DNA of 64,000 bases from Rhodococcus tukisamuensis NBRC 100609. Lineage in GTDB: Bacteria > Actinomycetota > Actinomycetes > Mycobacteriales > Mycobacteriaceae. The position numbers and the translations under genes were made by a program. The notes under the pieces were generated by a model. That model was not told where the DNA came from, ran no database searches, and saw only the letters and a program-made list of their open reading frames with translations. Shown here piece after piece: positions 10,052-32,159 of this stretch (positions within the stretch are counted from its first letter, which is position 1; every line of letters starts with the position of its first letter). The DNA lies in NCBI RefSeq assembly GCF_001894985.1, contig NZ_BCXG01000006.1, positions 124,001-188,000 of the forward strand, in the 5' to 3' direction.

Positions 10052-11050
10052 ATGCGTATAGGCAGACCGAGGTTCTCTGAACGCCTCAAGCGACGCGTTC
10101 TCGGCCTGTCGGCCGCGGCGCTCGTCCTGCCCCTAGCCGCTGGTATTGCGGGTACCGCTGTCGCAGGCGCCGCACCGATCACGCACCGCGCCCCTTCGGG
10201 CGGATTCGAAGAGGTGATGGTCCCGTCCTCGATGGGCCCCATCAAGGTCCAGATCCAGTGGGCGGCCCGCGGTGGCGACGCTGCGCTGTACCTGCTCGAC
10301 GGTCTGCGCGCCCGCGACGACCGCAACGCCTGGACGTTCGAGACCAACGCGCTCGACCAGTACCGGAACGACAACATCACCCTGGTGATGCCGGTCGGCG
10401 GCCAGTCCAGCTTCTACACCGACTGGATGGCGCCGTCGAACTTCAACGGCCAGGAGGTCACCTACAAGTGGGAGACCTTCCTCACGAAGGAACTGCCGGA
10501 CTACCTCGCCACGCGCGGCGTCTCGCGGACCAACAACGGCGTGCTCGGCCTGTCGATGGGTGGCTCCGCCGCCCTGACCCTGGCCGCATACCACCGCGAC
10601 CAGTTCAAGTTCGCGGGCTCGCTCTCGGGCTACCTGAACATCTCGGCGCCGGGCATGCGTGAGGCCATCCGCGTCGCGATGCTCGACGCCGGCCGCTTCA
10701 ACGTGGACTCCATGTGGGGCCCGCCGTGGAGCAAGTCGTGGCTGCGCAACGACCCGTTCGTCTTCGCGCCGAAGCTCAAGGACCTGTCGATGTACGTGTC
10801 CTCGGCCAGCGGCCTGCCCGGTCAGTACGACCACCCGAGCAAGGCGATCGACTACTACAACACCGCCAACGGCATGGCGCTCGAGGCGCTGGCGCTGGCG
10901 AACAGCCGGGCTTTCCAGGTCCGCCTGGCCACCCTCGGGATCCCGGCGACGTACAGCTTCCCGTCCAACGGAACCCACTCGTGGCCGTACTGGTCCGCCG
11001 AGCTGTTCAAGGCCCGGGGCCAGATCCTGGACGCCCTGAACGCCCGGTGA
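10052..11050 (+). CDS. Secreted mycolyltransferase, antigen 85 type
   Basis: Trehalose-mycolate:arabinan/trehalose mycolyltransferase acting outside the membrane. 332 residues from the ATG at 10052, chosen for its upstream AAGAGAG site and because it begins a standard signal peptide (MRIGRPRF, Arg-rich, then a LGLSAAALVLPLAAG core and AGA-AP cleavage site). Alpha/beta-hydrolase features: YLLDGLRARDD, PVGGQSSFYTDW oxyanion region, nucleophile Ser168 in GLSMGGSAA, and His309 in GTHSWPYW. Position equals fbpA (Rv3804c); which of the two copies is the main Ag85 cannot be told. Followed by a strong terminator, so it has its own transcription unit. Confidence 0.93.
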   Translation: MRIGRPRFSERLKRRVLGLSAAALVLPLAAGIAGTAVAGAAPITHRAPSGGFEEVMVPSSMGPIKVQIQWAARGGDAALYLLDGLRARDDRNAWTFETNALDQYRNDNITLVMPVGGQSSFYTDWMAPSNFNGQEVTYKWETFLTKELPDYLATRGVSRTNNGVLGLSMGGSAALTLAAYHRDQFKFAGSLSGYLNISAPGMREAIRVAMLDAGRFNVDSMWGPPWSKSWLRNDPFVFAPKLKDLSMYVSSASGLPGQYDHPSKAIDYYNTANGMALEALALANSRAFQVRLATLGIPATYSFPSNGTHSWPYWSAELFKARGQILDALNAR

Positions 11051-23330: not shown

Positions 23331-24872
23331 GTGACCACCACCGCAGACAAGCTGGCGGAACTTCGCGAGAAGCTGGAGCTGTCGAAGGCCCCGGGCAACC
23401 CGAAGGCCATCGCGCGGCGCGCGGAGAAGGGCCTGCCCACTCCGCGCGAACGCATCGACATGCTGCTCGACCCGGGCAGCTTCGTCGAGGTCGGCCAGCT
23501 CGCCCGGATGGCGGGCGATCCCGCCAACCCGTACGGCGACGGCGTCGTCACCGGGCACGGCACCGTCGAGGGCCGGCCCGTCGCGGTGTTCGCGCACGAC
23601 CAGACCGTCTTCGGCGGCGCGGCCGGCGAGATCTTCGGCCGCAAGGTCTCCGCGATCCTCGACTTCGCAATGAAGATCGGCTGCCCCGTCGTCGGCATCA
23701 ACGAGTCCGCCGGCGCCCGCGTCCAGGACGCCGTCGCGTCGGTGGCCTGGTACGCGGAGATGGGCCGGCGTCACGAGCCGCTGTCCGGGCTGTGCCCGCA
23801 GATCTCGATCATTCTCGGCAAGTGCGCCGGTGGAGCCGTCTACGCGCCGATCAACACGGACGTCGTGATCGCGACCGAAGAGTCGTACATGTTTGTCACC
23901 GGTCCGGACGTCATCAAGTCCGTGACCGGCGAGGACGTCAGCCTCGATGATCTGGGCGGCGCCCGCAAGCAGGCCGAGTACGGCAACGTGCACCACGTCG
24001 CGCCGGACGAGAAGGCAGCGTTCGAGTACGCGCGCAAGTACCTGAGCTTCATGCCGTCCAGCTGCACCGAGCAGCCCCCGATCGTCAACCCCGGTCTCGA
24101 GCCGGAGATCACCGAAGACGACCTCTCGCTCGACACGTTCATGCCGGACGCCGACAACTCCGGCTACGACATGCACGACGTGCTGCTGAAGATCTTCGAC
24201 GATGGCGACTTCCACGAGGTCCGCAGCCAGACCGCGCAGAACATCATCACCGGCTTCGCTCGGGTCGACGGCCGTCCGGTGGGCGTGGTCGCGAACCAGC
24301 CGATGCACCTCTCCGGCGCGCTGGACGCGGCGGCGTCGGACAAGGCCGCGCACTTCGTGCAGGTCTGCGACGCGTACAACATCCCGCTGGTGCTGGTCGT
24401 GGACACTCCGGGCTTCCTGCCGGGCGTCGAGCAGGAGAAGATCGGCGTCATCAAGCGCGGTGGCCGGTTCCTGTTCGCCTACGTCTCGGCGACCGTGCCG
24501 AAGGTGACCGTCGTGGTCCGCAAGTCCTACGGCGGCGGCTACGCGGTGATGGGTTCCAAGCAGCTCGGCGCCGACGTGAACTTCGCCTGGCCGACCGCCC
24601 GTATCGCGGTGATGGGCGCGGAGAGCGCGGTCGCGGTGATCGGCCGCAGGCAGATCGAGGCGGCCGGCGAGAACGCCCCCGCCGTCCGACGGGAGCTGAT
24701 CAACTTCTACAACGAGCACGTCGCGACCCCGTACGTCGCGGCCGAGCGCGGCTACATCGACGCGGTGATCGACCCGTCGACCACCCGCCTCGAGATCCGC
24801 AAGGCGCTGACGCTGCTGCGCGGCAAGACGGTCGCCAAGAACCCGCGGAAGCATGCGCTGATCCCGTTCTGA
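23331..24872 (+). CDS. accD4: Acyl-CoA carboxylase carboxyltransferase subunit AccD4
   Basis: Beta subunit that carboxylates the C24-C26 acyl-CoA, giving the 2-carboxyacyl-CoA extender used by Pks13; works with AccA3, AccD5 and AccE, none in this window. 513 residues. Seen: biotin-side oxyanion Gly pairs in [15 protein letters not shown] and in [15 protein letters not shown]-like [16 protein letters not shown], the [15 protein letters not shown] block, and the C-terminal half [22 protein letters not shown] and [22 protein letters not shown] start immediately after the pks13 TGA. The gene converges on the emb operon, with the inverted-repeat element in between. Confidence 0.96.
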
Positions 24873-24876
24873 CCGT

Positions 24877-25431
24877 CCCGCCCGTTCTCCTCCCCAATGT
24901 CACATTGGTTGCCCACAGGGTCCCCAATGTGACATTGGGGAACGGGAGTCGATTTCCCAGGCCATCGCGACGGAGTCGATCCAACCGTCCGGCCTCGCGA
25001 TGAAGCTGCCTGTGCCGGTTTCGATCTCACAATTGTGGACCATCGGCGGCAGACCGCTGCGCCGGTAGAGTTGCTGCGCTGCGATCTCGGCGACGGAGTG
25101 GGCGTCGGCCGCGAGTTCACGCAGAACCGATCGTGGCAGCGCGGTGCCGCGCCGCGACCCCTCGGCAAGTTCGATCGCCAGTTCCTCGACCGAGGTGTCG
25201 CCCCGCTGGATGACTTCGCTGAGCAGCGCCCGGCAGGCATCCCTTCGTCGCAAGCGGCGCGCGACGTCCAGCACGGCTCGGGTGACCGGTGCGCAGCGGA
25301 GCGAGCCTCGGGAATCCGGACCTGTGGACAACCGTCCGTCCCGCGCCAGGATCCAGCCCGGCCAGATCCCCAATGTCACATTGGGGACCCTGTGGGTAAC
25401 CAATGTGACATTGGGGAGGAGAACGGGCGGG
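24877..25431. repeat. 65-bp terminal inverted repeats made of palindromes, framing a gene fragment
   Basis: Left arm 24877-24941 and right arm 25367-25431 are reverse complements at 64 of 65 positions. Each arm contains two copies of the palindromic core CCAATGT-S-ACATTGG: 24894-24908 and 24921-24941 on the left, 25367-25387 and 25400-25414 on the right. The inner copy of each arm is a perfect 10-bp-arm palindrome with a one-base centre. Between the arms lies a decayed gene. The right arm ends one base before the emb stop codon. It may act as terminator of two convergent operons, a palindromic repeat family, or a small mobile element. No target duplication was recognised. Confidence 0.85.
24942..25366 (-). 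pseudogene. Fragment of a DUF559/AbiEi-like nuclease-fold gene
   Basis: On the - strand the frame reads a protein-like stretch of about 125 residues (DVARRLRRRDACRALLSEVI, RRGTALPRSVLREL, AQQLYRRSGLPPMVHN, FIARPDGWIDSVAMAWEIDS) that resembles the middle and late part of actinobacterial proteins with a C-terminal DUF559 restriction-endonuclease-like domain. The expected start and N-terminal part are missing and the C-terminus stops where the left palindromic arm begins, just after the E-x-DS strand. The open frame only gains apparent start and stop codons inside the repeats. Called a pseudogene; family call is by eye. Confidence 0.55.
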
Positions 25432-28400
25432 CTAGTAGACCCGCATCATCCCGGGGTTCCAGAAGCCGGACCGGGTGACCTCGCTGGTGTCGATGGTCGC
25501 GGCGGTGGCGTCGGGGAAGAACCGGTTGTACCGCTCGAGCGCGCCCCAGTCCCGGCCCCAGTCGTCCTTGAGGTAGGTGGGCACGGTCGACGGCTCGGCC
25601 AGCATCTCGGTCCAGCCGCGCGGTCCGCCGTTCTCCTGCGACTGCCAGGTGTCGGTGGAGCTCACCGCCAGCGGGCGGTCCGGCTTGATCCGGTAGTTGG
25701 GCATCTCGGCGACGCCGTACAGGTGGTCGAACGGACGCTGGCAGGGGAACTGCAGCCCGACCGCCCAGTCCAGGAGCACCGGCTGGGTGGAACCGACGAA
25801 GTCGTTGAGCGTCTGCAGCTGCGGCACCCGCGGCGGGGTGAACGCGAGCCACTGGTCGCCGGTGAGGTTCGGGTCGTGCGCGAGCACCCGCACCACGTTG
25901 GTCTCCGCGGGCAGCTCGTCGAGCGGGATCCGCAGGTTCCGCCAGGACGGCGCGGGCCCGATGTCCTTGGGCAGGTAGGTGCCCAGCGCGGTGACAGCGC
26001 CGCCGGCGTCACGGTGTCCGTACTCGAGCAGCAGCGACTGCCCGTAGGTGAACTCGCCGTCCTTGGTCTCCGACCAGATCCGACCGGCCGCGGTGACGAC
26101 CACGAGCGGGGCGTCCTCGGTGCGCTCGGGCAGCTGGTACCAGCTGGTGGTGACCTTCGCGGGTTCCTGCACGCCCGGCTGGTAGCTGCCCAGGACCGGG
26201 GTGGTCGCCGGGTCCAGGCCGAACGGGAGCTTCGCGGTGCTGCCGTTGACGCCCTGTGCGCCGGTGCCGCCGGAGGTGCCGGCGTTGGAGCCGGTGGCGA
26301 AGTTGGCGCCGACCGACTGCGAGTCGGTGTTCGACTGTCCGGGCTTGACCTCGGTGTAGTCCGCGGTCAGGTCCTCCGGCACGCCGTTGGGGCTGAAGCC
26401 CGTCGGGGCGACGCCGGCCAGCGGGTCTTTCGGGTCGGTCGGCGGCTGCGCCGGGTCGAGCACCGGCTGCAGGCGTCCGGCGTTCGGGTCGGCCTCCGTG
26501 AGCACGTCGGTGGCCAGCCCACAGCTCGAGCCGGTGACGGCGTCGACGTTGGAGCGGGCCAGCGAGTACGCCGGGTACTGCGCGACCGCGCCCTTGGCGA
26601 GGGAGAGGATCTCGAAGAGCACCATCGCCGCGGCGACCACGGTCAGCGGCATCGCCGCGAACTTCTTGATCCGCCGGCCCTTCTCGGTGGAGGCCTTCAC
26701 CTCGGTGCCGATGAAGTCCTCGCGGAAGTACTGCCAGCCCACCAGGAGGATCGCCGCCACGAACAGCGCGAGCAGCGCGGTGTTGAGCTCGAAGCCGGCG
26801 AGCGAGACGGTCTTGTCGAACCACGGGATGCCGTAGCTCGAGACGTACCACCAGCCGTTGATGCCGGAGAACGAGAACGCGAGCACCAGCAGCAGCCCGG
26901 CCGCGAACATGGTGCGGTTACGGCGCGAGCGCAGCGCGCTGGCCGACACCGCGACCGCGGTCAACGCGGCCAGCGAACCGGCGATGCCCGCGTACACACC
27001 GAAGTGGTGGGTCCACTTGGTGGGGTTGAACATCATGAAGAAGATCGTTCCGAACACCACGCCCAGCAGCCGCCAGGACGGGCCGACGGCCGCGCCGGGA
27101 ATCCGCTTGCGGCGCAACAGCACGAACAGCGTGGTGAACAGGCACAGCATCATCACCAGGAAGGCGAAGCGGCGCGAGACCGAACCGTCGACGGTCTGCA
27201 CGAACAGGTAGTAGTACCGGAGGAACTCCTCGTACCAGTTCATGTTCGGGCCGATCAGGGTGCGCACCCGGGTGGCCTCGCGGACCCCGGCGAAGGTCTG
27301 GTCGGCGAACACCGCGACCAGCACCACCGTGCCGGCGGCCATCAGCGGCGCGAGCAGCGGCCACAGCCCCACCTCGCGGTGGCGGCGGACCAGGATCCGC
27401 AGCATCGGCCGGGCGCCGGCGAGCAGCGCGGCCACACACATCAGGCCGGTCGGGGCGGCGCCGAGGGAGAACGCGGCGATCACGATGGCGACGGCGGCCG
27501 GCAGCAGGCGTCCGGTGGCGATGGACCGCTCCACCGAGCACCAGGTCAGCAGGGCGCCGAGGGCCACGATCGGTTCGGGGCGCAGGCCGTTGTTGTAGGG
27601 CATCCAGAACGCGAGGAACACCAGTGCGCCGGTCCAGACGGCGGCCTGACTGTGCCGCACCGCCCGCCCGAGGCGCGGGATCACCTCGCGGCTGATCACC
27701 ATCCAGCAGAGGATTCCGGCGAGCAGCGCCGGCAGTCGCATCCACGGGCTGGCGGTGGAGATCTTCGCCATCGCGGCGAGCACCTCGTAGTACCAGCCGA
27801 ACGGCGCCTCGGGGACACCGAACCAGCGGAAGTAGTTCGCCATGTAGCCGGCGTGCTCGGACGCGCGGGCCATGGTCAGCAGGTAGCCGTCGTCGGCGGT
27901 GTTGGCGCCGATGAAGTGCCAGAGCACCAGGGCCGCGGTGACGGTCGCGTCGATGGGCCGGAAGCGCCACCAGCGGGCAGGCAGGAAGCGTCTGTGCACT
28001 CGACCGTCGGTGCCGTCGAGGCGACCCAGCGCGACCAGGGAGGAGATGGTCAGCAGCACGGCCAGCACCATCGCGGCCAGCTTCACGAACGTCGGCGACG
28101 AGGTGAACCGGCTGTCGATGTTCGCGGTGAAGGTCAGGTCGGACGGCGCCGCGCCGTCGAGGCTGGAGAAGACGCCGACCAGCTGCGGGCGCAGGTCGCC
28201 GGTGAGGGTGCCGGTCGCCGGCTGCCCGTCGACGGTGAGGCCCTCGAACGTGGCGGTGGTCTGGTCGATGTCCGAGACGATGGTCAGCGCGGAACAGCCG
28301 CCGGACGCGACGGCGTCGCGCGGCGCGGTGGCGACCACCACGTTGCGGTCGAGGACGTCGACGGTGCTCTCGGTGACCCGGACGAACATCGCGTTCAGCG

Positions 28401-28731
28401 ACGCCTCGGAGCCCTGCGGCGGCGCGGTGGCCAGCAGCAGTCCGCCCGACGCCGGCAGGTCCCGGACGAGCCGGCACGGCACGCTGGCCTGCAGATCGAT
28501 GGGCACCTGTGCCATCAGCGGTGCGTCGACGTTGCCGATCACCCCGGCCTGCGGCCAGTTCAGGGCCGCCGCGGTCTGCTTGACGGGCAGGAACGGCGTC
28601 GCGACCGCGAGCACGAACCCGAGCAGTCCGGTGACAATCGCGATGAGCCGGGCGGTCCGGTACTTCGCGCGCATGTCCACGGAGGTCGATATTGCGGGCG
28701 GGCGAGGGGGAGCTGTCACGGCTTCGGGCAC
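25432..28731 (-). CDS. embB: Arabinosyltransferase, EmbB-like
   Basis: GT-C membrane arabinosyltransferase of 1099 residues, building arabinan from DPA; ethambutol target family. Seen: N-terminal periplasmic beta domain after helix 1, the catalytic acidic pair in GANTADDGYLLTMAR (the Met equals the M306 ethambutol-resistance position), HAGYMANYFRWFGVPEAPFGWYYE, PYNNGLRPEPIVALGALLTW, RYYYLFVQTVDGSVSRRF (closer to EmbB than to the other paralogue), and the carbohydrate-binding C-terminal half ending SGFWNPGMMRVY. Start taken as GTG 28731; no clear ribosome-binding site, and an internal ATG at codon 20 is possible. Second of two tandem emb genes. Confidence 0.88.
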   Translation of the reverse strand: MPEAVTAPPRPPAISTSVDMRAKYRTARLIAIVTGLLGFVLAVATPFLPVKQTAAALNWPQAGVIGNVDAPLMAQVPIDLQASVPCRLVRDLPASGGLLLATAPPQGSEASLNAMFVRVTESTVDVLDRNVVVATAPRDAVASGGCSALTIVSDIDQTTATFEGLTVDGQPATGTLTGDLRPQLVGVFSSLDGAAPSDLTFTANIDSRFTSSPTFVKLAAMVLAVLLTISSLVALGRLDGTDGRVHRRFLPARWWRFRPIDATVTAALVLWHFIGANTADDGYLLTMARASEHAGYMANYFRWFGVPEAPFGWYYEVLAAMAKISTASPWMRLPALLAGILCWMVISREVIPRLGRAVRHSQAAVWTGALVFLAFWMPYNNGLRPEPIVALGALLTWCSVERSIATGRLLPAAVAIVIAAFSLGAAPTGLMCVAALLAGARPMLRILVRRHREVGLWPLLAPLMAAGTVVLVAVFADQTFAGVREATRVRTLIGPNMNWYEEFLRYYYLFVQTVDGSVSRRFAFLVMMLCLFTTLFVLLRRKRIPGAAVGPSWRLLGVVFGTIFFMMFNPTKWTHHFGVYAGIAGSLAALTAVAVSASALRSRRNRTMFAAGLLLVLAFSFSGINGWWYVSSYGIPWFDKTVSLAGFELNTALLALFVAAILLVGWQYFREDFIGTEVKASTEKGRRIKKFAAMPLTVVAAAMVLFEILSLAKGAVAQYPAYSLARSNVDAVTGSSCGLATDVLTEADPNAGRLQPVLDPAQPPTDPKDPLAGVAPTGFSPNGVPEDLTADYTEVKPGQSNTDSQSVGANFATGSNAGTSGGTGAQGVNGSTAKLPFGLDPATTPVLGSYQPGVQEPAKVTTSWYQLPERTEDAPLVVVTAAGRIWSETKDGEFTYGQSLLLEYGHRDAGGAVTALGTYLPKDIGPAPSWRNLRIPLDELPAETNVVRVLAHDPNLTGDQWLAFTPPRVPQLQTLNDFVGSTQPVLLDWAVGLQFPCQRPFDHLYGVAEMPNYRIKPDRPLAVSSTDTWQSQENGGPRGWTEMLAEPSTVPTYLKDDWGRDWGALERYNRFFPDATAATIDTSEVTRSGFWNPGMMRVY

Positions 28732-28798
28732 GATTGACGATGGTATGCGAGCGGCCGTGGTGGATCACACCGCGTCGGGATTGTCCGATATCGCGATC

Positions 28799-28836
28799 GC
28801 GGGTGCGGGCGCCCGTGTACGGGGGCCCGCACCCGC
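28799..28836 (-). terminator. Long GC hairpin between the two emb genes
   Basis: GCGGGTGCGGGC (28799-28810) pairs perfectly with GCCCGCACCCGC (28825-28836), and the 14-nt loop can pair further (CCCGT with ACGGG). It stands 15 nt after the first emb gene's stop and before the second gene's start, with no T run. It could reduce read-through (attenuation) or protect the upstream message. Confidence 0.5.
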
Positions 28837-28850
28837 GTTCGCGGTCCCGG

Positions 28851-31800
28851 TCAGCGAGCGGCGAGCGGCCCCGGGCTCCACAGTCCGGACCGCGTGACCG
28901 GCTCGGTGTCGACCTGTCCGGTCACCGCGGCGGGGTCGAGCGGGGTGTACTTCTCCAGCGAACCCCAGTCCCGCGCCCAGTCCTTGTTCAGGTAGCTCGG
29001 CATGGTCCGCGACGTCAGCAGCAGATCGATCCAGCCGAGCGGGCCGCCGCCGATCTTGTCCTGCCAGCCGTTGGTGGAGTCCGCGCCCACCCGGTCGGGC
29101 AGGATCCGGTACTCCGGCACCTCGGCGACGCCGTACTCGTGCGCGAACGGGCGCTGGCAGGGGAACGACAGCCCGACCGACCAGTCCAGCAGCACCGGCG
29201 CGGTGGTCCCGACCACCTCGTTCAGCGTCTGCAGCTGCGGTACCCGCGGCGGCGTCACGGCCAGCCACTGCTTCGGGGTGAGGTCGCGGTCGTCCGCGAC
29301 CAGCCGGACGGCGTCCGCGTCGGCGGGGATGTCCGCCGTCGGCACCCTCAGGTTCCGCCAGGACGGCGACGGCCCGATGTCGATCGGGGCGACGCGGCCG
29401 CGTACCTCCACCTGGCCGTCGTCCGTGCGGGTGCCGTACTCGACGGCGAGGTCCTGACCGGGGGTGACCACACCGTCCTTGTCGACCGAACGGATCCGGC
29501 CGGCGGCGGTGACCACGAGGATCGGTGCGGCGTCGCTGCGCTGTGACTCTGACCCGGCTGCGCCGGAGTGCGGCAGGCCGTACCAGTCGGAGATCAGCTG
29601 CGCGGGCACCTGCTCGCCGACCTGGTAGCTGCCGAGAACCGGGGTGCGCGCGGGGTCGAGGCCGAACGGCAGCGCCACGGAGCTGCCGTTGACGCCGGTG
29701 GCGCCGGTGCCGCCGCCGGTGCCCGCGGCCGTGCCGGTGGTGGTCGTCGTCGTGGTCGAGTCGAGCGAGTTGGCGCCGCCTGCGCCCTTGTTCTCCGCGT
29801 CCGCGGTGAGGTCGACGGGCACGCCGTTGGGGGTGAAGCCCTTCGCCTCCTCGCCGCCGAGCGGGTCGGGTGCGCCGGAGAGGGCGCTGAGCATCCCGAC
29901 GTTGGCGTCCGGCTCGATCAGCACGTCGTCGGCGAGGGCGCAGGTGTCGCCGGTGAGGGTGTCGAAGTTCGACCGGGCCACGGAGTACGCCGGGTACTGC
30001 GCGACCGCGCCCTTGGCGAGCGAGAGCACCTCGAAGAGCACGACGAAGGCCGCCGCCAGGGTCAGCGGGGAGTCGAGCAGCGCCCGCCAGCCGTGGGTGG
30101 GCACCGGCCGTTCCTCCGCGAGGTACGGCTGACGCAGGTGCTGCCAGCCGGCCAGCAGCAGCGCCAGCACCGACAACACGAGCAGGCCGTTGGCGAAGCT
30201 GTTGCCGCCGATGGACGGCGGCTTGTCCCACCACGGCACGCCGTAGCTGGACACGTACCACCAGCCGTTGGAACCGGAGAAGGCCATGGACAGCAGGAAC
30301 AGCACGGCGGCCGCGAACAGGGTGCGGTTGCGGCGCGAGCGCAGGGTGGCGGCGGCGACGGCCACCGCGGCCAGGGCGGCGACCGAGCCGGCGATGCCGG
30401 CGTAGACACCGAAGTGGTGCGTCCACTTGGTGGGCGTGAACATCATCAGCAACAGCGAGCCGACGATGATGCCGAGGATCCGCCGGGACGGTCCGGCGGC
30501 GGTGCCCGCGATGCGACCGCCGCGGCGCAGCATCATCATCCCGCACACCACCACCGACAGGATCATCACGAACACGCCGAACCGGCGGGCCAGCGAGCCG
30601 TCGGGGGAGACGTTCATCAGCGCGTCGTACCGGTGGTACTCGTCGAACCACTGGACGTTGGGGCCGACCGCGGACCGCACCCGGGTGGACTCGAGCACGG
30701 TGGCGAGGGTCTGGTCGGCGAAGATCACGATCAGCACCACCAGGCCGGCGGCGCCGATCGGCGCGAGCAGGGGCAGCCAGCCGACCTGCCGGGCGCGGGT
30801 GACGGCGATCTGCACGAGCGGCCGCGCGCCCACGATCAGGGCGGCGACGGCGATCAGCCCGGTCGGCCCCGCGGCCAGGGAGAACGCCGCGATCAGCACG
30901 CCGACGGCGGCGGGCAGCAGCCGTCCGGTGGCGATCGCCCGCTCGATCGAGCACCAGGTCAGCAGCGCGCCGAGGGCGATGATCGGTTCCGGGCGCAGGC
31001 CGTTGTTGTAGGGCAACCAGAACGAGAGGAACACCAGTCCGGCGGTCCACAGGGCGATCCGGTTGTGCCGCACCGCCCGGCCGAGTCGGGGGATCACCTC
31101 CCGGCTGACCACCATCCAGCACAGGATGGCGGCGATCAGGGCCGGCAGTCGCATCCAGGTGCTGGCGGTGCCGACCTTGGTCATCAGCGTGAGCACGTCG
31201 TAGTACCAGCCGAACGGGGCCTCGGGGACGCCGAACCAGCGGAAGTAGTTGGCCATGTACCCGGCCTGCTCCGAGGCCCGGGCCATGTTGAGCAGGTAGC
31301 CGTCGTCGGAGGTGTTGGCGCCGATGAAGTGCCAGAGCACGAGCACGCCCGCGACCAGCGCGTCGACGCCGGTGAAGGTCCACCAGTGCCGCGGCAGGAA
31401 GCGCCGGGCCCGACGGCCGTCGACGCTGTCGAGGCGGTGCAGGGCCAGCAGCGCGAGCGCGGTCGCGAGGACGCCGACGATCATCGCGAGCAGCTTGAAC
31501 ACCGTCGGACTGGAGGAGAAGCGGGAGTCGATGTCGGCGTGCACCGCGAGGCCGGCGGGGGCGGCGCCCTGCAGGTCGGAGAAGACGCCGACCATCTGCG
31601 GGCGCAGGTCGCCGGGCAGGTCCACGCTGGTGGCCCCGTCGGCGGCGTCCGCGTCGGCGTCGGGCAGGCCGGCGAAGGTCACGGTGGTGTGCGTGGCGTC
31701 CGAGTGCACGACGATGGCGCTGCACCCGCCGAGTTCGGCGAGCGGCGCGGAGATCAGCTGGGTGTTGCGCAGGATCACCTGCACGGTCCGGTCGGGTTCG

Positions 31801-32159
31801 GACCCGACCTTCACCACCAGCCCGGCGAGCTCGGCGTCGGCGGACTGCTTCGGCACGGTCGAGAGGAGGTTGCCGCCGTCGGGCAGCGTCGCGGCCGTCG
31901 CGCAGGGCAGGTGCACGTCCAGGCTGATCGGCTCGTAACTGACCAGCGGGGCATCGATGCTGGTCAGGGTGCCGTTCTGCGGCCAGGAGATGGTGGCCTG
32001 CTGCTGCGTCACGGGCAGCAGCGGGGTGAGTACCGCCAGGACCAGGCCCACCAGCCCGGCGACGACTGCGATCAGTCGTGCGGTGCGGAGGGCGGAGCGG
32101 TCCGGGGCGGGCGGTGCCCCCGGGTTTGTCACTGTGGGGGTCTCAGGCTCGGCGGGCAC
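28851..32159 (-). CDS. emb: Arabinosyltransferase, Emb family (first copy)
   Basis: Emb-family GT-C enzyme of 1102 residues. Same architecture as its neighbour: helix 1, periplasmic beta domain, catalytic pair in [57 protein letters not shown], helices to about residue 680, and a C-terminal carbohydrate-binding region ending [12 protein letters not shown]. The equivalent of the RYYYL...DG block reads [18 protein letters not shown], unlike EmbB, so this is the EmbA/EmbC-type partner; which one cannot be settled without alignment. The central membrane part is strikingly similar to the second copy. First gene of the emb operon, preceded by the terminator of the small gene. Confidence 0.88.
   Translation of the reverse strand: [1102 protein letters not shown]

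Follow-up and report, generated by a model that had tools for sequence, protein, structure and literature searches.

A decayed nuclease-like gene between paired palindromes in Rhodococcus tukisamuensis points to an undescribed gene-and-repeat system

Why should a piece of a gene lie between two almost identical inverted arms, exactly where two convergent genes come to an end? The question is raised by a 64,000-nucleotide stretch of the genome of Rhodococcus tukisamuensis NBRC 100609 (contig NZ_BCXG01000006.1, positions 124,001 to 188,000; hereafter the window). Here we compare this junction with its counterparts in five congeners, follow the repeats through the genome and the genus, and follow relatives of the enclosed gene through the order. 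The association between the gene and its bracketing repeats points to an undescribed gene-and-repeat system.

Table 1. Positions in the window of the gene remnant, the paired palindromes and the adjoining genes
Feature	Coordinates	Strand	Detail
Carboxyltransferase gene, flanking	23331..24872	+	Pfam Carboxyl_trans 4.9e-153
Outer flank, left arm	24877..24890	.	Also present in right arm
Left double-palindrome element	24891..24941	.	Palindromes 24894-24908 and 24924-24938, pitch 30
AbiEi-like/DUF559-like gene remnant	24945..25319	-	tblastn: residues 134-258 of 332-aa G004 homologue
Right double-palindrome element	25367..25417	.	Palindromes 25370-25384 and 25400-25414, pitch 30
Outer flank, right arm	25418..25431	.	
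Arabinosyltransferase gene, flanking, convergent	25432..28731	-	Pfam Arabinose_trans 6.4e-220

The junction in the window and in congeners

The two arms (24877-24941 and 25367-25431) are complementary at 64 of 65 positions, lie 425 bp apart and each contain two CCAATGTSACATTGG palindromes of 15 bp, as the original prediction had stated and recomputation bears out. The pitch of the two palindromes is exactly 30 bp in each arm. Once extended by a repeat finder, they reach 70 nt, 96% complementary and 415 nt apart. The left arm begins 4 bp past the stop of the carboxyltransferase gene, the right arm directly adjoins the stop codon of the arabinosyltransferase gene, and the gap between these convergent stops consists of both arms and the gene remnant. 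We take the two genes to be accD4 and emb, the conventional names already used for them in the original prediction. At positions 25432-32159, two genes of arabinosyltransferase type, with 1099 and 1102 codons, stand in tandem (the Pfam test covered the first one only), and a GC-rich long hairpin lies between them at 28792-28843.

Each arm folds into a single long hairpin of -43 to -49 kcal/mol (four window sequences folded). Compared with dinucleotide shuffles, these four arm-covering sequences have folding z-scores between -5.6 and -8.2. In the genome of 5.49 Mb, the exact 15-mer was counted 11 times and the reversed control pattern not once; given these counts and the folding scores, the palindrome is not a product of chance. 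The window region contains no U tract after the hairpins, and we therefore reject a classic U-tract terminator. A known RNA family is rejected as well, since the only matches were to microRNA precursor families, far below the gathering score. We also reject a phage or plasmid origin: the 63-bp element found no match in either collection (E <= 0.01), and no viral relative of the protein was found.

The remnant is 77% identical to the G004 protein (96 of 125 residues by tblastn). It is missing both the N-terminal part of the protein and, at the C terminus, the end of the nuclease region. It had been described as cut exactly at the arms. This holds on the left, where homology begins 0-3 bp from the arm (at 24942 by profile, 24945 by tblastn), and fails on the right, where it stops about 45 bp short (25319-25322 versus 25367).

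Comparison of the accD4-emb junction among congeners gave a mixed picture. In three of the five (G001, G004 and G005) the gene is intact, with 322-353 codons, and has on either side a double palindrome that is unlike those of the window in sequence. The other two (G002 and G003) have a different gene, presumably dienelactone-hydrolase-like, and no element was found at their junction. Because intact bracketed orthologues occupy the same site in three of five congeners, the enclosed gene is a resident of the junction rather than captured cargo. The window genome has the repeats and lacks an intact close homologue, and we saw no intact gene that carries the window's own bracket sequence. We interpret the window junction as an eroded copy of a gene-plus-repeat cassette, in which the gene decayed and the repeats remain.

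The near-identity of the arms, for which gene conversion had been suggested, fits local conversion or inverted copying. Both arms of the window have the same 14-bp outer flank, unlike the G004 arms, whose outer flanks are not alike; this suggests that one side was copied onto the other.

A dispersed repeat family and the genes that it brackets

The alternative raised in the original prediction, a palindromic repeat family, is borne out by the search for the core and arm sequences. The own genome has 38 near-matches to the palindrome (<=2 mismatches), and 32 of them form 16 pairs exactly 30 bp apart, both pairs at the window junction included; the unit is thus a doublet, not a singlet. Four of the remaining near-matches sit in pairs 29 or 32 bp apart (G000:C5:150930/150959 and G000:C4:122981/123013, respectively), the palindrome at C3:133436 has a partner at 30 bp with 3 mismatches, and one further near-match has no partner. 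The exact 15-mer is absent from 60 relatives. The looser pair pattern ATGTSACAT-N21-ATGTSACAT (<=3 mismatches) is present in all six genus genomes (27, 11, 3, 3, 21 and 4 matches, the counts of 27 and 21 taking in related cores such as ATGTCGCAT), with every control at 0.

The pitch also emerges without reference to sequence. A scan of 422 kb of the window and relatives for two near-palindromes whose arms also pair mutually returned ten cases at pitch 30 and four at all 27 other pitches combined. Of the ten, six belong to the accD4-emb junction, and some stretches were picked on element-bearing contigs, so that the density describes a non-random sample while the comparison between pitches is fair. 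The palindrome sequences vary (CCAATGTSACATTGG, TGAATGGSCCATTCA, TGATGGGAACCATCA, TGAACGGWCCGTTCA and others) and the pitch is constant.

Under a crude gene caller, the 21 own-genome elements outside the window fall between convergent genes in 13 cases, between co-directional genes in 8 and between divergent genes in none, mostly 15-50 bp past a stop codon. By eye, the ends of the own ATGTSACAT family read TCC...GGA. The family is unevenly spread, since a strict scan of 400 kb of own-genome contig C1 found no double palindrome at pitch 30. A hairpin with GATGTCACA/TGTGACATC arms on the same contig (L252:2560-2617) resembles a decayed family member.

Elements can persist for a long time, because four of those in the own genome still have a counterpart at the same G004 junction; their movement is therefore slow or past. 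Other junctions carry an element in one of these two genomes alone (L070 in the own genome, L292 in G004). At the junction on own contig C12, G001 has a TGAAGG...CCTTCA double palindrome (by eye) and G005 has none. In G001, the linker of a polyketide synthase, presumably pks13-like, contains two in-frame double palindromes of the TGAGGGGAACCCTCG family (L093:10815-10859 and 10950-10994). They are absent from the window genome, G002, G003 and G004, a related stretch occurs in the G005 linker (by eye), and from this distribution they look like insertions.

All five intact close homologues of the gene found in the genus, among them second copies elsewhere in G001 and G004, are bracketed on both sides by pitch-30 double palindromes. 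Left and right brackets resemble each other and differ from locus to locus. Searched with a profile of these five proteins (E <= 1e-25), 122 out of 397 genomes from the order contained relatives, and we studied 74 loci, namely the five of the genus and 69 better-scoring ones among the matches listed. Within 400 bp of the gene, strict matches number 56 at pitch 30 and 8 at the other 25 pitches together; farther out (202 kb) the corresponding numbers are 1 and 5. At a relaxed threshold 32 loci have elements on both sides, 20 on one side and 22 on neither, with hits in 4 of 146 control windows; at the strict threshold the numbers are 19, 18 and 37, with 1 of 146. Eight neighbouring pitches bracket at most three loci each on both sides. 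After deduplication at 75% identity 46 loci remain, of which 20, 13 and 13 (relaxed) or 13, 8 and 25 (strict) have elements on both sides, one side and neither. The association of gene and pitch-30 element is thus a plain observation.

So is the matching of left and right elements. Across the 32 bracketed loci, left and right 45-mers agree at 40.1 of 45 positions within a locus versus 22.9 between loci, and none of 2000 permutations reached the observed within-locus identity. The cassettes are 1113-1320 bp long, with room for one gene only, and the distance from the upstream element to the start of the protein match is 72-145 bp in all but one of the 32.

Many element-free loci bear a long upstream hairpin with non-palindromic arms (23 loci inspected). 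Near-perfect long hairpins upstream of the gene at L338, L342, L361, L315, L319, L348 and L352 have an apical GGGAC...GTCCC-like part in common and are perhaps a second element type. At L308 and L337 each bracket is a tandem of two long hairpins.

Over 44 loci, the similarity of the proteins correlates with that of their arms (Mantel r 0.47, 0 of 1000 permutations). Arms are shared at 27/30 in 16 of the 19 protein pairs that are more than 80% identical and in 1 of 872 pairs below 55%. Part of this sharing reflects descent, because gene and bracket are inherited together.

The protein itself appears to combine two regions. Based on profile matches, the intact product of about 320-350 codons would have an N-terminal AbiEi-like DNA-binding region and a C-terminal PD-(D/E)XK nuclease region of DUF559/MTES_1575 type. 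The PADLOC AbiEi model PDLC02249 matches 35 of 37 homologues (E <= 0.1, best 3.9e-15), and Pfam matches at the same threshold are AbiEi_4 in 11, AbiEi_1 in 4, MTES_1575 in 3 and DUF559 in 1. Alignment by hhalign with six distant MTES_1575/DUF559-bearing homologues gave a probability of 98.8 over residues 52-313. Of 74 sequences, 73, 66, 72 and 73 retain the respective residues of the motif D244...E255-x-D257...H262, and the nuclease part is therefore probably active. Among PDB sequences, a profile search returned nothing under E 0.5. According to the excerpts of PMC7319586, AbiEi proteins bind two inverted repeats with a protein-specific fixed spacing, and by analogy such paired-repeat binding would be the natural reading of the 30-bp pitch.

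If the bracketed genes maintain the dispersed repeats, bracket families should also be dispersed families, and the genomes examined differ in this respect. The single G040 gene listed has a bracket, GCATGGYSRCCATGC-N15-GCATGGYSRCCATGC, that had not been met at other loci beforehand. As predicted, this bracket (<=3 mismatches) has many matches in G040 (142, with 0 in the control; the figure counts both copies at the bracket and some array matches that overlap). It has none in the 17 other genomes searched, all of which have relatives of the gene, a copy number specific to the genome in the one genome tested. The 50 best-listed G040 copies have exact arms and variable loops. Although the pattern leaves the apical positions free, 64 of 78 apical pairs in 13 distinct copies are still paired. 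The ends of 15 copies read roughly GGYC...GRCC (by eye), and for 11 of the 15 the 3' end of a gene is at most 18 bp away.

Other results oppose a strict matching of gene and repeats. The ATGTSACAT-core family of G004, mostly with CTG...CAG ends and the sole dispersed family counted genome-wide there, is unlike both G004 brackets. A 400-kb sample of G108 yielded 19 elements, of which one is in a coding region and two overlap; eight of the 19 agree with a G108 bracket at >=27/30 arm bases. The other 11 have no such match within G108, and the best agreement of the sample with brackets outside that genus is 24/30. A 400-kb sample of G027 shows no enrichment of pitch 30, and the bracket family of its gene copy L336 was not found in it; the single element listed is unlike that bracket and, by eye, like the weak element of L306, the other gene copy in this genome.

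Explanations for the association

Mobilisation of the repeats by the protein that they bracket appears to be the likeliest mechanism. An intact cassette would consist of one gene of about 320-350 codons between two near-identical elements, each made up of two 15-bp near-palindromes with a pitch of exactly 30 bp, which jointly form one long hairpin, with copies scattered over the genome, often just past stop codons. The AbiEi-like region would bind both palindromes as a fixed-spaced pair, the nuclease would cut the element, in its hairpin, cruciform or duplex form, or the DNA next to it, and the element would then be copied to other sites by repair or replication. The gene would stay put and be inherited mostly vertically, as reported for RAYT genes. 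At the window junction, where erosion is observed, the repeats would have outlasted the gene and local conversion would have made the arms alike; the repeats may also serve, in a secondary role, as bidirectional terminators. We consider this model as a whole, with an eroded copy of the cassette at the window junction, rather probable. The protein is likely to bind the palindrome pairs, to cut DNA, and to spread or maintain the repeats.

Three other explanations must be weighed against the cassette model. The original prediction first offered a small non-autonomous mobile unit, in effect a MITE with 65-bp terminal inverted repeats and a captured piece of a gene, and near-identical inverted arms around a gene fragment do have this appearance. 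Counter to this, the 555-bp unit occurs whole only once in the genome, all other matches being arms alone, and 15 G040 copies include none with a target-site duplication of lengths 2-8. Since orthologues with intact genes and brackets also occupy this junction in three of five congeners, we reject capture, and a MITE-like unit is very improbable. The same prediction offered a double terminator. The elements could be bidirectional terminators of convergent genes that insulate the gene between them, their likeness due to local conversion or a shared termination factor. Their preference for convergent gene ends, the strength of the window hairpins and the closeness of G040 copies to gene ends all suit termination, and bidirectional intrinsic terminators free of a U tract share the hairpins near stop codons between convergent genes. 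The window hairpins, however, lack a U tract, and the many long gene-end hairpins in the 400 kb of C1 include no pitch-30 double palindrome in the strict scan. Termination also has no need of a 30-bp pitch, of palindromic arms with a genome-specific sequence (the 142 G040 matches) or of a tie to one gene family. A terminator role, perhaps secondary, is possible; as the whole explanation it is unlikely.

The third explanation keeps the protein and dispenses with copying. It would be a sequence-specific factor that binds or marks its own chromosome, and the dispersed pairs would be selected sites (a regulon, a roadblock or a titration that restrains the nuclease). The AbiEi-like N-terminal region and the paired-repeat binding of AbiEi (PMC7319586, in excerpt) argue for this, as do the exact arms and varying loops of the 50 best-listed G040 copies, and the position of the upstream element would suit autoregulation. 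Arguing against it, the G040 apical loops keep a pairing that duplex sites would not need, and the polyketide synthase elements of G001, missing in four of five other genus members, look like insertions. We regard selected sites without copying as quite unlikely, and return to the cassette model and its relation to known systems.

The closest likeness is to REPIN-RAYT systems, or REPtrons (TnpA-REP, IS200/IS605-related), which the excerpts of PMC3116915, PMC6006769, PMC3733652 and PMC8049555 describe mainly from Gram-negative bacteria. There, too, these excerpts describe an enzyme gene with short palindromic repeats on its flanks, a flanking repeat family dispersed in intergenic DNA of the same genome, an inverted doublet of the repeat that forms a hairpin, and a single-copy, vertically inherited gene with gene-specific repeat families. 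The REPIN-RAYT enzyme is a Y1 HUH transposase, in contrast to the AbiEi-like and PD-(D/E)XK-like protein here. Y1_Tnp (PF01797) was found in none of the six genus genomes and in 5 of 14 control genomes, and no Pfam match to it occurs among 37 homologues of the protein. No GTAG/CGTC tetranucleotide foot was seen by eye in the own family or the 15 G040 copies. Each arm here is near-palindromic with a pitch of exactly 30 bp, whereas one REPIN class, as excerpted, has 71 bp between 16-mers. Because the six genus genomes lack a Y1 transposase, we reject a RAYT-driven REPIN for the genus: the system works like REPIN-RAYT and is not a member. We see an even chance that it is an actinobacterial, non-homologous counterpart, in which a nuclease recognises and copies 30-bp-pitch pairs, co-evolves with them and persists bracketed by them, the window junction being the end stage after loss of the gene.

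The N-terminal region, with its AbiEi profile matches and the fixed-spacing repeat binding reported in the same excerpts of PMC7319586, also recalls AbiE type IV toxin-antitoxin systems. Unlike in the AbiEi antitoxin, the C-terminus is nuclease-like, and the repeats are dispersed beyond the promoter. An AbiE system also has an adjacent gene for the AbiEii nucleotidyltransferase toxin; the bracket here has room for one gene, and five gene maps show the genes that lie outside it. Actinobacterial DUF559/MTES_1575 proteins share the hhalign similarity and the conserved D...E-x-D...H motif, but none of seven distant homologues (24-30% identity, DUF559-bearing type) is bracketed by the elements. Among the titles and opening abstract lines of the open-access matches listed, none ties AbiEi or DUF559 proteins to dispersed palindromes, which is weak evidence of novelty, and six core sequences were printed nowhere in the open-access PMC literature searched.

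Many Gram-negative genomes have REP and REPIN repeats together with a dedicated enzyme, which raises the question how populations of such repeats persist. If the cassette model is true, there would be a second system, based on a nuclease of unrelated type, in a group that reportedly has no REP-type transposases (PMC6006769, in excerpt). The excerpt gives the Actinobacteridae only subclass 1.1 (IS200 type) of this transposase family, and the system described here may fill this gap. One could then ask which traits such systems have in common, among them the doublet as unit, the hairpin, the bracketing, the matching of gene and repeats and the loss of the gene. It would also give unnamed AbiEi/DUF559-type proteins a candidate function, help explain the palindrome pairs between convergent genes in these genomes, and provide, in a single protein, a candidate for sequence-specific recognition of DNA, with its target to be read off the flanks of its own gene.

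Related palindromes and tandem arrays

A scan of named genomes for the AATG core yielded at least 119 stretches, and the 80 examined are mostly from Amycolatopsis and relatives, a few distant hits of the scan being probably due to chance. No relative of the protein was found in these 80 loci (tblastn, E <= 0.1). One stretch from Amycolatopsis palatopharyngis (L177:3967-4131) has six similar palindromes in a row, arrayed with a pitch of 30 bp, from which it follows that the repeat unit is able to form longer tandem arrays. A stretch of G040 (G040:C2:1526161-1526265) resembles this array.
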